Source: Prauserella halophila | GTDB lineage: Bacteria; Actinomycetota; Actinomycetes; Mycobacteriales; Pseudonocardiaceae | Assembly: GCF_024171895.1 (NCBI RefSeq) | Contig: NZ_JAMTCQ010000009.1 | Location: 843,318-907,317, forward strand | Length of the DNA: 64,000 nucleotides | Direction: 5' to 3' | Shown here: one piece after another, positions 9,864 to 13,175 of the stretch | Numbering within the stretch: position 1 is the stretch's first letter | Layout: each line of letters opens with the position of its first letter | The notes under the pieces: model-generated | Databases searched by the model: none | What the model was told of the DNA's origin: nothing | Seen by the model: only the letters and a program-made list of their open reading frames with translations | Position numbers and translations under genes: made by a program

Positions 9864-9999
9864 CGGCGCCACCTCCCACGGGTCGGAGACCGCCGCGCGG
9901 AGCGTGCGGTGGCAGGAGTGTACGCACCGGTGCCGGTGTCAGGACCATTCCGACGGGCCTTGAGGTCGGGGATTTCCACCGCGCGCCGGGCGGGCGGAG

Positions 10000-10227
10000 T
10001 CAGCGGGCGTCGATCACGATCCGGACGGGGGCGGCGCCGTGTTCCAGTTCGGCGGCGCGTTGGTAGAGCTCCGCGGACATGCCGCCGAGCAGTTCGGCCA
10101 GTTCGCGGACGCCGTCGACGGGCAGCGTGCCGCCGTCCTGGCGGCCCATGAGGTCCACGACGGCCCGGCCGAGTCCGGTGTTGACCTGCCCGAGACGTGC
10201 GAGCAGGTCGCGGTCGCGGGCGATCAT
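10000..10227 (-). CDS. Small helical protein (75 aa), unknown function
   Basis: The 75-residue product MIARDRDLLARLGQVNTGLG... is predicted helical with an LAELLGGMSAELYQRAAELEHG helix region (read in two parts) and a short C-terminal strand VRIVIDAR. Its ATG overlaps the stop of the 44-aa ORF in front by four bases. Small proteins of this look are found beside XRE/DUF397 or DUF6879 genes in actinomycetes, but I know of no assigned function. It is divergent from the DUF6879/XRE operon. Confidence 0.6.
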   Translation of the reverse strand: MIARDRDLLARLGQVNTGLGRAVVDLMGRQDGGTLPVDGVRELAELLGGMSAELYQRAAELEHGAAPVRIVIDAR

Positions 10228-10358
10228 TCGTCGTCCTTGTCGTCCTTGTCGGCGAGGACGTCGTCGTCGGGCTGGCCTTCGTGTGGGTCGTTGGGCGATA
10301 TGCCGTCCGCGTTGACGAGGACGTAGGGCAACCTGCAGTCCCCGCTGATCCATCCCAT
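10224..10358 (-). CDS. Very small acidic protein (44 aa), possible peptide precursor or antitoxin-like
   Basis: The ATG at 10356-10358 gives MGWISGDCRLPYVLVNADG followed by a strongly acidic tail ending DDKDDE. A CAGGGAG ribosome-binding site lies about eight bases upstream. The stop overlaps the next ATG by four bases. The N-terminal half is hydrophobic with a single cysteine, and the tail holds about 15 acidic residues in 25. The reading frame is supported by spacing and coupling rather than by homology. Without a known family, a role as signalling peptide or inhibitor partner is only a guess. Confidence 0.5.
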   Translation of the reverse strand: MGWISGDCRLPYVLVNADGISPNDPHEGQPDDDVLADKDDKDDE

Positions 10359-10418
10359 GACGTACTCCCTGTTGTGGCCGTGTCCTGTGGTCGCGTTTCA
10401 GCGTGTCGCCCTGGAGTA

Positions 10419-10535
10419 AGAAATTTGAGAAATATTGGCGCGATACCCTCCAGTGGAGGATGTCGAGGGAGGCTATGGGGGTGAGGTTCCTGCGCAGGTT
10501 GACTCCATCGTTGGTTGTACTGTGCTCAAATTTCT
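10419..10535. promoter_or_regulatory. Divergent control region with an 11-bp inverted repeat
   Basis: AGAAATTTGAG at 10419-10429 and its exact complement CTCAAATTTCT at 10525-10535 face outwards, so each transcription unit has the same AT-rich box reading CTCAAATTTCT in its own direction. A TTGACT (10499-10504) with TGTGCT (10521-10526) could be the rightward promoter, with the box at its start point. A separate palindrome CCTCCAGTGGAGG lies at 10447-10459. The boxes stand out in GC-rich surroundings and probably bind the XRE regulator encoded downstream. Confidence 0.55.
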
Positions 10536-10576
10536 CGGAGTACATCGATGATGTGCTCATCAACCAAGGAGCCCAG

Positions 10577-10798
10577 ATGAAGATCCGGTACCTCGGCACC
10601 AGCTCGGAAGAGGGCAGCTGCCCGACCGTCTATGAGACTGACCGCGACACGTTCCTCGTCCAGGGCAACGTCGTCACGGACACGGCCGCGCTTGCCGAGC
10701 TGCGAAGGCACAACAACGGGATCCCGGAGTGGGAGACCGTTGTCGAGATCCCCAAGGAGCTGGTACGCCACTTCCCGCAGGAGTCTCGCCACGTATGA
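10577..10798 (+). CDS. Small protein (73 aa) of the DUF6879-linked type
   Basis: The start is the ATG at 10577, preceded by AAGGAG eight bases upstream. The sequence has a KIRYLGTSSEEGSCPTVYET opening, a strand TFLVQGNVV and a terminal VVEIPKELVRHF. Small proteins with this pattern commonly precede DUF6879 genes in actinomycetes; none has a known function to my knowledge. The stop overlaps the DUF6879 start by four bases (ATGA). Confidence 0.75.
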   Translation: MKIRYLGTSSEEGSCPTVYETDRDTFLVQGNVVTDTAALAELRRHNNGIPEWETVVEIPKELVRHFPQESRHV

Positions 10799-11307
10799 GT
10801 CCGATGGACGAACTGAACGAGCTGTTCCGCAGCTTTCGCCACAGCTCGTGGCGGTGGGAATGCCAGGGTGAGTACGCCGTTGACGAGGCGAAGTTGCAAC
10901 GGTGGCGCGACGGCTTGCCGCCCGACCTGGCGGCCAAGCGGCCGTGGCTCGACTTCATCGGAGGTCTCGTCGCCGACGGTAAGACGTGGCAGCGGGTGCG
11001 GATGCTGACCGAACCGCTGACCGAGTACCTCCAGTGGATGCTGGAGAACACGCAGACGAACGTCGATGCGGGCGAGGACATCCGGTGGATCGAGCAATCC
11101 ACGGCGCAGCAGCTGGCGATGCCGGACTACGATTTCTACCTGTTCGACGACCGCCTCGTCGCGATCATGCGCTTCGACGATGACAAGCTGCTGAGTCGGG
11201 TCGAGACCAGTTCGGACGAGAGTGTCGTCGCCGAGCATCGCGCCTACCGCGATAAGGTCTGGCCTCAGGCCCGCCCGCACACCGATGATCTCGCAGGGAC
11301 CTCTTGA
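10795..11307 (+). CDS. DUF6879 family protein
   Basis: The protein has 170 residues. It starts MSPMDELNELFRSFRHSSWR, and carries the family pattern of a conserved aromatic-charged core (GKTWQRVRMLTEPLTEYLQW, then DFYLFDDRLVAIMRFDD). DUF6879 proteins are almost always encoded next to XRE regulators with DUF5753-like tails and are thought to form a regulatory module; the biochemical role is not known. It overlaps the 73-aa gene in front and the XRE gene behind by four bases each. Confidence 0.8.
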   Translation: MSPMDELNELFRSFRHSSWRWECQGEYAVDEAKLQRWRDGLPPDLAAKRPWLDFIGGLVADGKTWQRVRMLTEPLTEYLQWMLENTQTNVDAGEDIRWIEQSTAQQLAMPDYDFYLFDDRLVAIMRFDDDKLLSRVETSSDESVVAEHRAYRDKVWPQARPHTDDLAGTS

Positions 11308-12143
11308 CCGACACCAGTCCGCGCCGACTCGCACTCGGTGACACGTTGCGCCTGTTGCGCGGGTCGACAGGTCTGTCGGGCAAACTGCTTGCCGAGCAAC
11401 TGGGGTGGCAGGCGTCGAAGATCAGCAAGATCGAAAACGCCCGGCAGGCGGTCACCGACACCGACATCGTGGACCTCGGTCGCGTGCTCGATCTGGATCA
11501 TGAGCAGGTCGAGGAACTGCGCGACGAATTGCGCGCGATCCGGCTCGACGAGGCCCGGTGGGCCCGGCAGTTGCGCGTCGGGCACCGGCCGTTGCAGGAG
11601 AATGTCGCGCGGGCGGACCAGACAGCCGACCGCATCGGTGTGTTCTCGTTGACGCTTGTCCCCGGACTCCTGCAGACCGCCGAGTACGCCCGGCACGTGT
11701 TCTTGTCGTTGGCCGAGATGCACGACTCCCCGCGCGACACCGACGAGGCTGTCCGCGGCCGGATGGACCGGCAACAGGTCCTCTACGACGAGTCGAAACA
11801 GGTCGAGCTGCTCATGGCGGAGTCCGCCCTGCACTATCCGGTCGCTCCGAGGAACGTCATGCTCGGCCAGATCGACCGGCTGATCACGGTGCAGGGGTTG
11901 CCGTCGTTACGGTTCGGGATCATCCCGCTCGGACGCCGGCTCCCGGCTGTGGTCGCACACAACTTCGTCTTGAAAGACGACGCCGTCACGGTGGAGCTGA
12001 TCAATACTGAGTTCACCACGCAAGACGCCGCCGACGCGGCGTTGTATCGCCGCTACTTCGACAGCCTGTGGTCGGTGGCGGCCGAGGGCGATGACGCCAG
12101 GGCGATTCTCACGCGGATCGCGTCGGACCTCACGATGTCGTAG
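11304..12143 (+). CDS. XRE regulator with DUF5753-type C-terminal domain
   Basis: The protein has 279 residues from a TTG start that overlaps the DUF6879 stop (TTGA). Residues 8-65 form an XRE helix-turn-helix (LLAEQLGWQASKISKIENAR), and the remainder is the DUF5753 domain with ADRIGVFSLTLVPGLLQTAEYAR and FGIIPLGRRLP. Regulators of this type occur in large numbers in actinomycetes and often pair with DUF397 or DUF6879 partners; some affect development. The operon is translationally coupled from the first to the third gene, so stoichiometry is probably important. It may bind the CTCAAATTTCT boxes upstream. Confidence 0.9.
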   Translation: MTDTSPRRLALGDTLRLLRGSTGLSGKLLAEQLGWQASKISKIENARQAVTDTDIVDLGRVLDLDHEQVEELRDELRAIRLDEARWARQLRVGHRPLQENVARADQTADRIGVFSLTLVPGLLQTAEYARHVFLSLAEMHDSPRDTDEAVRGRMDRQQVLYDESKQVELLMAESALHYPVAPRNVMLGQIDRLITVQGLPSLRFGIIPLGRRLPAVVAHNFVLKDDAVTVELINTEFTTQDAADAALYRRYFDSLWSVAAEGDDARAILTRIASDLTMS

Positions 12144-12160
12144 GACTGCGGCGTATCGAC

Positions 12161-12166
12161 TAGCGT
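12161..12166 (+). promoter_or_regulatory. -10 box, leaderless start
   Basis: TAGCGT lies seven bases before the ATG at 12174 and no Shine-Dalgarno sequence precedes it, so the quinone reductase mRNA is predicted to begin at its start codon. Confidence 0.5.
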
Positions 12167-12173
12167 CGGTGTC

Positions 12174-13175
12174 ATGACCATCCCGACGGACCCGGAGACC
12201 GGCGAGTTCCACCGCGCCCCCAACGCCTTCGACGCTCGTATCACCGCCGACGGCCGTGACGGCTGGCCCGTCGAAGCGGGCCGCTACCGCCTGGTCGTCA
12301 GCCGCGCGTGCCCGTGGGCGAGCCGGGCGCTGGTCGTCCGCAGACTGCTGGGCCTTGAGGGAGTCCTGTCGCTGGCGGTCGCCGATCCGATCCAGGACTC
12401 CCGCAGCTGGCGATTCACCCTCGATCCGGGCGGACTCGACCCAGTACTCGGCATCGGATTCCTGTACGAGGCCTACGAGAGGGCCGCCCCGGCCTACGAC
12501 GGCGGCATCAGCGTGCCCGCGATCGTCGACGTGCCGAGCGGCAGGCTCGTCACCAACGACTACCCGCGGATCACGCTCGACCTCGACACCGAGTGGACGG
12601 CGCTGCAACGCGACGGCGCGCCCGAGCTGTATCCGGAGGCACTGCGCGACGAGATCGACGCCGTCAACGCCGACGTGCACCGGGACGTCAACGCGGCCGT
12701 CTACGAAGCAGGCTTCGCCACGAAACCGGCCGCCTACGAGGACGCCTACGACCGGCTGTTCGCCCGGCTGGACGTGCTGTCGGACCGGCTCTCGCGGCAG
12801 CGCTATCTCGTCGGGGACACGATCACCGAGGCCGACATCCGCCTGTTCACCACGCTGGTGCGATTCGACGCCGTCTACCACGGTCACTTCAAGTGCAACC
12901 GCCACAAGCTCACCGAACTGCCGGTGCTGTGGGCCTACGCGCGGGACCTGTTCCAGACGCCCGGCTTCGGCGACACGGTCGATTTCGACCACATCAAGCG
13001 GCACTACTACGAGGTGCACGAGCAGGTGAATCCGACGGGCATCGTGCCGAAGGGTCCGGACCTGTCGGGGTGGACCACCGCGCACGGCAGGGAGGAACTG
13101 GGCGGACGGCCGTTCGGCAACGGTACGCCTCCGCCACCGCCGCCCCCGGAGGAGGCCGTCACCTCCCGGTCGTGA
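12174..13175 (+). CDS. Glutathionyl/mycothiolyl-hydroquinone reductase (Xi-class GST)
   Basis: The protein has 333 residues. The catalytic cysteine sits in SRACPWASR (Cys46), the CPWA signature of Xi-class glutathione transferases (EcM4/YqjG), and the C-terminal helical domain has the expected YLVGDTITEADIRLF motif. The family reduces thiol conjugates of hydroquinones and detoxifies quinones. Actinobacteria generally use mycothiol, so the cofactor is probably mycothiol. The C-terminus ends in a run of seven prolines and a short tail, which is not typical. Confidence 0.85.
   Translation: MTIPTDPETGEFHRAPNAFDARITADGRDGWPVEAGRYRLVVSRACPWASRALVVRRLLGLEGVLSLAVADPIQDSRSWRFTLDPGGLDPVLGIGFLYEAYERAAPAYDGGISVPAIVDVPSGRLVTNDYPRITLDLDTEWTALQRDGAPELYPEALRDEIDAVNADVHRDVNAAVYEAGFATKPAAYEDAYDRLFARLDVLSDRLSRQRYLVGDTITEADIRLFTTLVRFDAVYHGHFKCNRHKLTELPVLWAYARDLFQTPGFGDTVDFDHIKRHYYEVHEQVNPTGIVPKGPDLSGWTTAHGREELGGRPFGNGTPPPPPPPEEAVTSRS

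Follow-up and report, generated by a model that had tools for sequence, protein, structure and literature searches.

In a 64,000-nucleotide stretch of Prauserella halophila DNA (the window), we found five small, tightly coupled genes that form a single insertion, in which a regulatory trio faces two very small genes across a shared intergenic region. The trio is a portable regulatory cassette, widespread in actinomycetes and combined with different cargo from locus to locus. We think it probable that the insertion is a mobile cassette in which a WhiJ-type local switch controls the accessory proteins of a deaminase-toxin cassette, the toxin being missing from this copy.

Locus anatomy and insertion site

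An earlier note on this DNA had described five genes in two divergent units coupled by 4-nt overlaps, and the open reading frames bear this out. The left unit, on the minus strand, opens with pep44 (10224..10358), encoding a 44-aa acidic small protein (MGWISGDC...DKDDKDDE), and continues with p75 (10000..10227), encoding a 75-aa helical small protein. On the plus strand, the regulatory trio opens with p73 (10577..10798; Shine-Dalgarno sequence AAGGAG, 10566-10571), which codes for a 73-aa alpha/beta small protein, and is followed by the genes for a DUF6879 protein (10795..11307; PF21806, E 8.8e-52) and for an XRE/DUF5753 protein (11304..12143; TTG start), a putative DNA-binding regulator of the WhiJ type. 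All three overlaps could be read directly: ATGA at 10227-10224 (pep44/p75), ATGA at 10795-10798 (p73/DUF6879) and TTGA at 11304-11307 (DUF6879/XRE). Only the DUF6879 and XRE/DUF5753 proteins were recognised by Pfam, with no family for pep44, p75 or p73. The XRE protein presents the WhiJ-type architecture, i.e. an N-terminal HTH (HTH_31, PF13560, E 3.8e-14) and a C-terminal DUF5753 domain (PF19054, E 9.4e-34), both above cut-off. It also matched NF058600 (Sco1979-type regulator), but under the cut-off of that model. Over its full length it is matched by PHROG family 9908 as well (viral DNA-binding protein, E 1.2e-41), indicating that phages or prophages carry such regulators too.

Alignment to the empty site of congeneric genomes placed the insertion at 9988..12148 (right edge 12148-12161), i.e. 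from 12 bp past the p75 stop codon to 5–18 bp past the XRE stop codon. The module lies between a WS/DGAT acyltransferase gene (left) and a glutathione S-transferase-like gene (right). These two adjoin, about 80–215 bp apart, in all six of the other Prauserella genomes searched, and the module is present in one of the seven genomes of the genus. Given that the flanks are neighbours in six congeners and that the module fills the gap, the five genes appear from these alignments to have arrived together as one 2.16-kb block, loss from six genomes being the less simple alternative. No transposase or integrase gene was found inside the insertion. An imperfect direct repeat flanks it (9898-9987 and 12148-12220) and resembles the start of the glutathione S-transferase gene; since the repeat is also present in relatives with the empty site, it is older than the insertion, and it may have served recombination.

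A related five-gene block of Prauserella aidingensis (L006) occupies a site whose flanks lie 26–405 bp apart in five congeners. In P. halophila the site is occupied by another cassette, L040 (G000:C5:104182-108784), 4.6 kb long and made up of two XRE/DUF6879 fragments, p75, zf86 (a zinc-finger-like 86-aa protein) and a DddA-like deaminase, and in other congeners it is empty or nearly empty. Judging from these comparisons the site is an insertion hotspot, and the presence of the L006 block and the L040 cassette at one site suggests that such blocks are exchanged at intergenic sites.

The regulatory trio and its paired boxes

A p73 scan of 84,980 species genomes retrieved 80 loci; removing duplicates and adding loci from other searches gave a set of 81. 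In 78 of these 81, p73 is followed by DUF6879 and then XRE/DUF5753 in the same order, and the p73 family is found in 193 of 390 Pseudonocardiaceae genomes. The cargo on the divergent side varies. At one locus (L162) it consists of an FxLD lanthipeptide precursor, a methyltransferase and a thiopeptide-type bacteriocin biosynthesis protein, the FxLD lanthipeptide genes beside the trio being recognised by TIGR04364, TIGR04363 and TIGR03891. Radical SAM enzymes (L101, L106, L153 and L157) or members of the glutamate-cysteine ligase family 2 (GCS2; L129, L130 and L135) are found at others, p75 lies on the divergent side in 11 trio loci, and DddA-like deaminase genes are also among the trio neighbours. 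Of the co-occurrence that the earlier note had proposed to survey, it is the trio that proved widespread; the full five-gene set was restricted to two Prauserella genomes.

The fold predicted for the DUF6879 protein offers a clue to its role. Its AlphaFold2 model (mean pLDDT 95.8) retrieved with Foldseek the phospholipase D PLD3 (probability 1.00, E 5.3e-5, with a moderate TM of about 0.5) and the sugar-binding domain of TrmB (PDB 2f5t; E 1.4e-3, TM-score 0.48). The HxK of the catalytic HxKxxxxD was found in none of 48 aligned DUF6879 sequences, so the catalytic motif is missing and DUF6879 would be a relative of the phospholipase-D (PLD) fold and not an active phospholipase D. We predict with high confidence, on the strength of the model, a PLD fold devoid of the catalytic HKD motif, and the fold together with its genomic context points to a ligand-sensing role. 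For p73 the AlphaFold2 model is alpha/beta (pLDDT 86, lower than that of DUF6879), and a fold search of it against the PDB gave no match. An alignment of p73 to DUF397 with hhalign, which places a p73 cysteine on a conserved DUF397 cysteine, was weak and not significant (probability 1.5%, P 0.03).

The same 11-bp box had been noted facing each unit in its own direction, and reading the coordinates on both strands upheld this: CTCAAATTTCT is located at 10419-10429 (-) and 10525-10535 (+), about 60 bp from the first start codon of the left unit and 41 bp from that of the right unit. Within one mismatch it occurs twice in the window versus 0.03 expected. In the 5.05-Mb genome the exact box appears twice, both times at the module, and only two further sites are found at one mismatch. 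Each box falls within a predicted operator. The left one (10419..10436, -), facing pep44-p75, is a direct repeat of 9-bp period, AGAAATTTG-AGAAATATT, and the right one (10518..10536, +), facing p73, contains the box and consists of a good half-site and a degenerate one. The locus thus has, between its divergent units, the direct repeats characteristic of WhiJ/BldB-type loci. A consensus scan gave no sigma-70-like promoter.

Box pairing was then assessed in the promoters of the 81 non-redundant p73 loci, which come from many genera, by comparing the distal half of each promoter with the proximal half and scoring their best match over 14 bp against a null in which halves were swapped among loci. 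Matches to an inverted copy averaged 10.91 versus 10.41 after swapping (z 6.6; 0 of 20,000 swaps reached the observed value), and matches to a direct copy were at chance in these 81 promoters. Repeats of 9-bp period were also enriched, with a perfect 7/7 copy in 15 promoters versus 1.2 expected. The inverted pairing across the 81 loci suggests that paired, oppositely facing predicted operators are general at p73 loci, although the sequences of these predicted operators vary from locus to locus. A covariation of recognition helix and box, striking by eye, was discarded, since among distantly related pairs recognition-helix identity did not follow box similarity (Mantel r -0.04). It is consequently by the within-locus boxes, and by these only, that the XRE protein is linked to its candidate operators.

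The left pair and the deaminase link

Among the 390 Pseudonocardiaceae genomes, pep44 has five clear copies, in two Prauserella genomes, and in all five it sits ahead of p75. Its N-terminus MGWISGxC (then ...V...G) is invariant in the five copies and its tail is divergent. With this tail and a dN/dS of 0.5–0.9, the evidence that pep44 is coding is weaker than for p75, and its acidic end doubles as the p75 Shine-Dalgarno sequence. The p75 gene shows a dN/dS of about 0.2–0.33 against sister copies, with substitutions mostly at third codon positions, a pattern from which we take it to be a real coding sequence under purifying selection. Its family is multicopy and found in 69 of the 390 genomes, with six copies in the P. 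halophila genome. Against solved structures p75 gave coiled-coil and designed-helix matches only.

The four other copies of pep44 belong to P. aidingensis, where the units continue with zf86 (L005 and L006) and/or a DddA-like deaminase. Of the five known full sets, three have the deaminase after pep44-p75(-zf86). It matches PF14428 in L005 (E 5.6e-31) and L007 (E 1.1e-29) and a custom profile in L043, and in L007 two Imm1 genes lie downstream of it. The window module contains no PF14428 deaminase gene and no Imm1 gene, the conserved flank resuming about 12 bp after p75. More generally, several p75-family genes directly precede DddA-like deaminases and others do not; since p75 is found away from deaminases too, its link with the toxin is a non-exclusive one.

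Other features of these families deserve mention. DddA-like (PF14428) genes, of about 250 aa, are present in 169 of the 390 Pseudonocardiaceae genomes; some genomes have ten or more of them, and P. halophila has eight. In what seems to be one conserved Prauserella neighbourhood (L042, L044 and L050), a p75-family gene occurs with no deaminase, which suggests an older, non-toxin role of the family. The genes past the deaminase and Imm1 genes of L007 (L007:11184-12894) encode a small helical protein and an NlpC/P60 protein; the latter matches WXG100 weakly, a hint that these toxins may be exported by type VII secretion. In L052 (L052:5992-7539), a p75-family sequence reads in frame into a 3-hydroxyacyl-CoA-dehydrogenase-like ORF of 515 aa, which may reflect a gene fusion or a misassigned start.

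Interpretation and relationship to known systems

In the explanation that we favour, the XRE/DUF5753 protein would bind two direct-repeat operators, one per divergent promoter, and would thereby control the p73-DUF6879-XRE operon, to which its own gene belongs, as well as the opposite pep44-p75 unit. Its DNA binding and the sign of the regulation are proposals, with WhiJ9 as precedent; as no other place in the genome has the exact box, it would act only at the module. Whether the XRE protein activates may be decided by DUF6879 and p73, as its sensing and antagonising partners. The output would be pep44-p75, to which sister loci add the deaminase and, in one checked case, Imm1. The two small proteins might assist the deaminase, in the role of adaptor, chaperone or regulator; in this genome they may act with deaminases encoded elsewhere, or they may be a remnant.

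The last possibility can be extended to the whole locus, as a deaminase-toxin cassette that has decayed after losing toxin and immunity, with a regulator that still runs and an output that has no function. The zf86, DddA-like and Imm1 genes of sister loci are indeed missing here, and P. halophila has another, partly broken cassette, L040, at C5. However, the five ORFs and the three overlaps are all intact, p75, p73, DUF6879 and XRE show a dN/dS of 0.1–0.33 against sister copies, and the sister copy L006 is intact even though it also lacks the deaminase. We therefore regard decay as rather unlikely.

The earlier note had suggested a regulated small-protein module with a peptide-like product, in a combination not described before. 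The regulated module is well supported by the single insertion, the shared boxes unique to the locus and the conserved co-occurrence, and the five-gene combination was indeed not found in the available literature, a limited set. The peptide-like product fared worse, pep44 having no family match, no adjoining modification gene and only five clear copies. A peptide-signal or modified-peptide locus, in which pep44 would be a precursor or signalling peptide and the trio its sensor, would suit the constant N-terminus and variable tail of pep44, and the trio does have lanthipeptide and radical-SAM genes on its divergent side in Streptomyces, among others. Yet genes for modification, export or proteolysis are absent from the insertion, so that the pairing of precursor and modification enzyme used to define RiPP clusters is not seen within it; moreover, pep44 appears only ahead of p75 in two genomes and its acidic tail coincides with a ribosome-binding site, all of which makes this reading improbable. 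We give even less credence to a toxin-antitoxin or phage-defence module, in which one of the small proteins would be toxic and the XRE protein the antitoxin. An earlier prediction had classed XRE/DUF397 pairs as type II toxin-antitoxin systems (cited in PMC10364602), and the insertion is found in a single genome out of seven from the genus, but the fourteen such pairs tested in S. coelicolor did not behave in this way (PMC10364602), PADLOC identified no defence family in the module, with generic HTH matches only, and the XRE gene and pep44-p75 belong to opposite units.

A broader proposal, which we put forward tentatively and hold to be less likely true than not, is that the trio is an undescribed, portable, signal-responsive actinomycete switch, in which a dead PLD-fold ligand sensor and p73 set the activity of a WhiJ-type regulator that works on paired operators specific to each locus, with lanthipeptide, radical-SAM or deaminase-toxin genes as cargo and the window copy driving the accessory proteins of the toxin alone. 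WhiJ-type regulators are multicopy in actinomycetes, and the one described here travels with a protein whose predicted fold points to a ligand sensor; as the sequence also reveals its candidate operator, sensing and wiring are directly testable. Uncharted peptide clusters and deaminase-toxin loci are flagged by the trio, which could become a handle for genome mining and whose activation might turn on silent clusters.

TrmB is an instance of a PLD-like fold that serves a regulator and not a lipase. The DUF6879 protein resembles it by the Foldseek match (PDB 2f5t), at a TM-score of 0.48, but in TrmB sensor and DNA-binding domain are fused and here they are separate genes. In the available, limited literature we found no mention of DUF6879, nor any description of a PLD-fold partner, the p73 family, paired 9-bp operators, swappable cargo or the deaminase link. 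Like SCP1.201/DddA-like toxins with Imm1 (PMC3482391), the sister loci carry PF14428 and, where checked, Imm1, unlike the window copy, which has neither toxin nor immunity gene. The XRE protein shares with the XRE-DUF397 pairs Scr1/Scr2 an HTH plus DUF5753, a length of about 280 aa and multicopy occurrence in actinomycetes (PMC10364602, PMC6262351), but it is set apart by its gene order, its partners and the DUF6879 gene.

WhiJ/BldB loci already provide precedents for this class of regulator and for the divergent layout. The WhiJ9 protein of Streptomyces venezuelae binds to three direct repeats located between its own gene and the divergent iosA; it is required for iosA activation and mildly represses itself, while BldB (DUF397) keeps iosA off and its loss turns iosA on (PMC10294661). 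As in WhiJ9-BldB9-iosA, an XRE-type regulator with a small partner lies here divergent from the gene it would control, with intergenic direct repeats. Unlike in that system, where the small partner is a DUF397 protein (BldB), p73 is not demonstrably a DUF397 protein; the locus has in addition a DUF6879 protein of predicted PLD fold, and two operators are predicted, with pep44-p75 in place of iosA as the proposed output.
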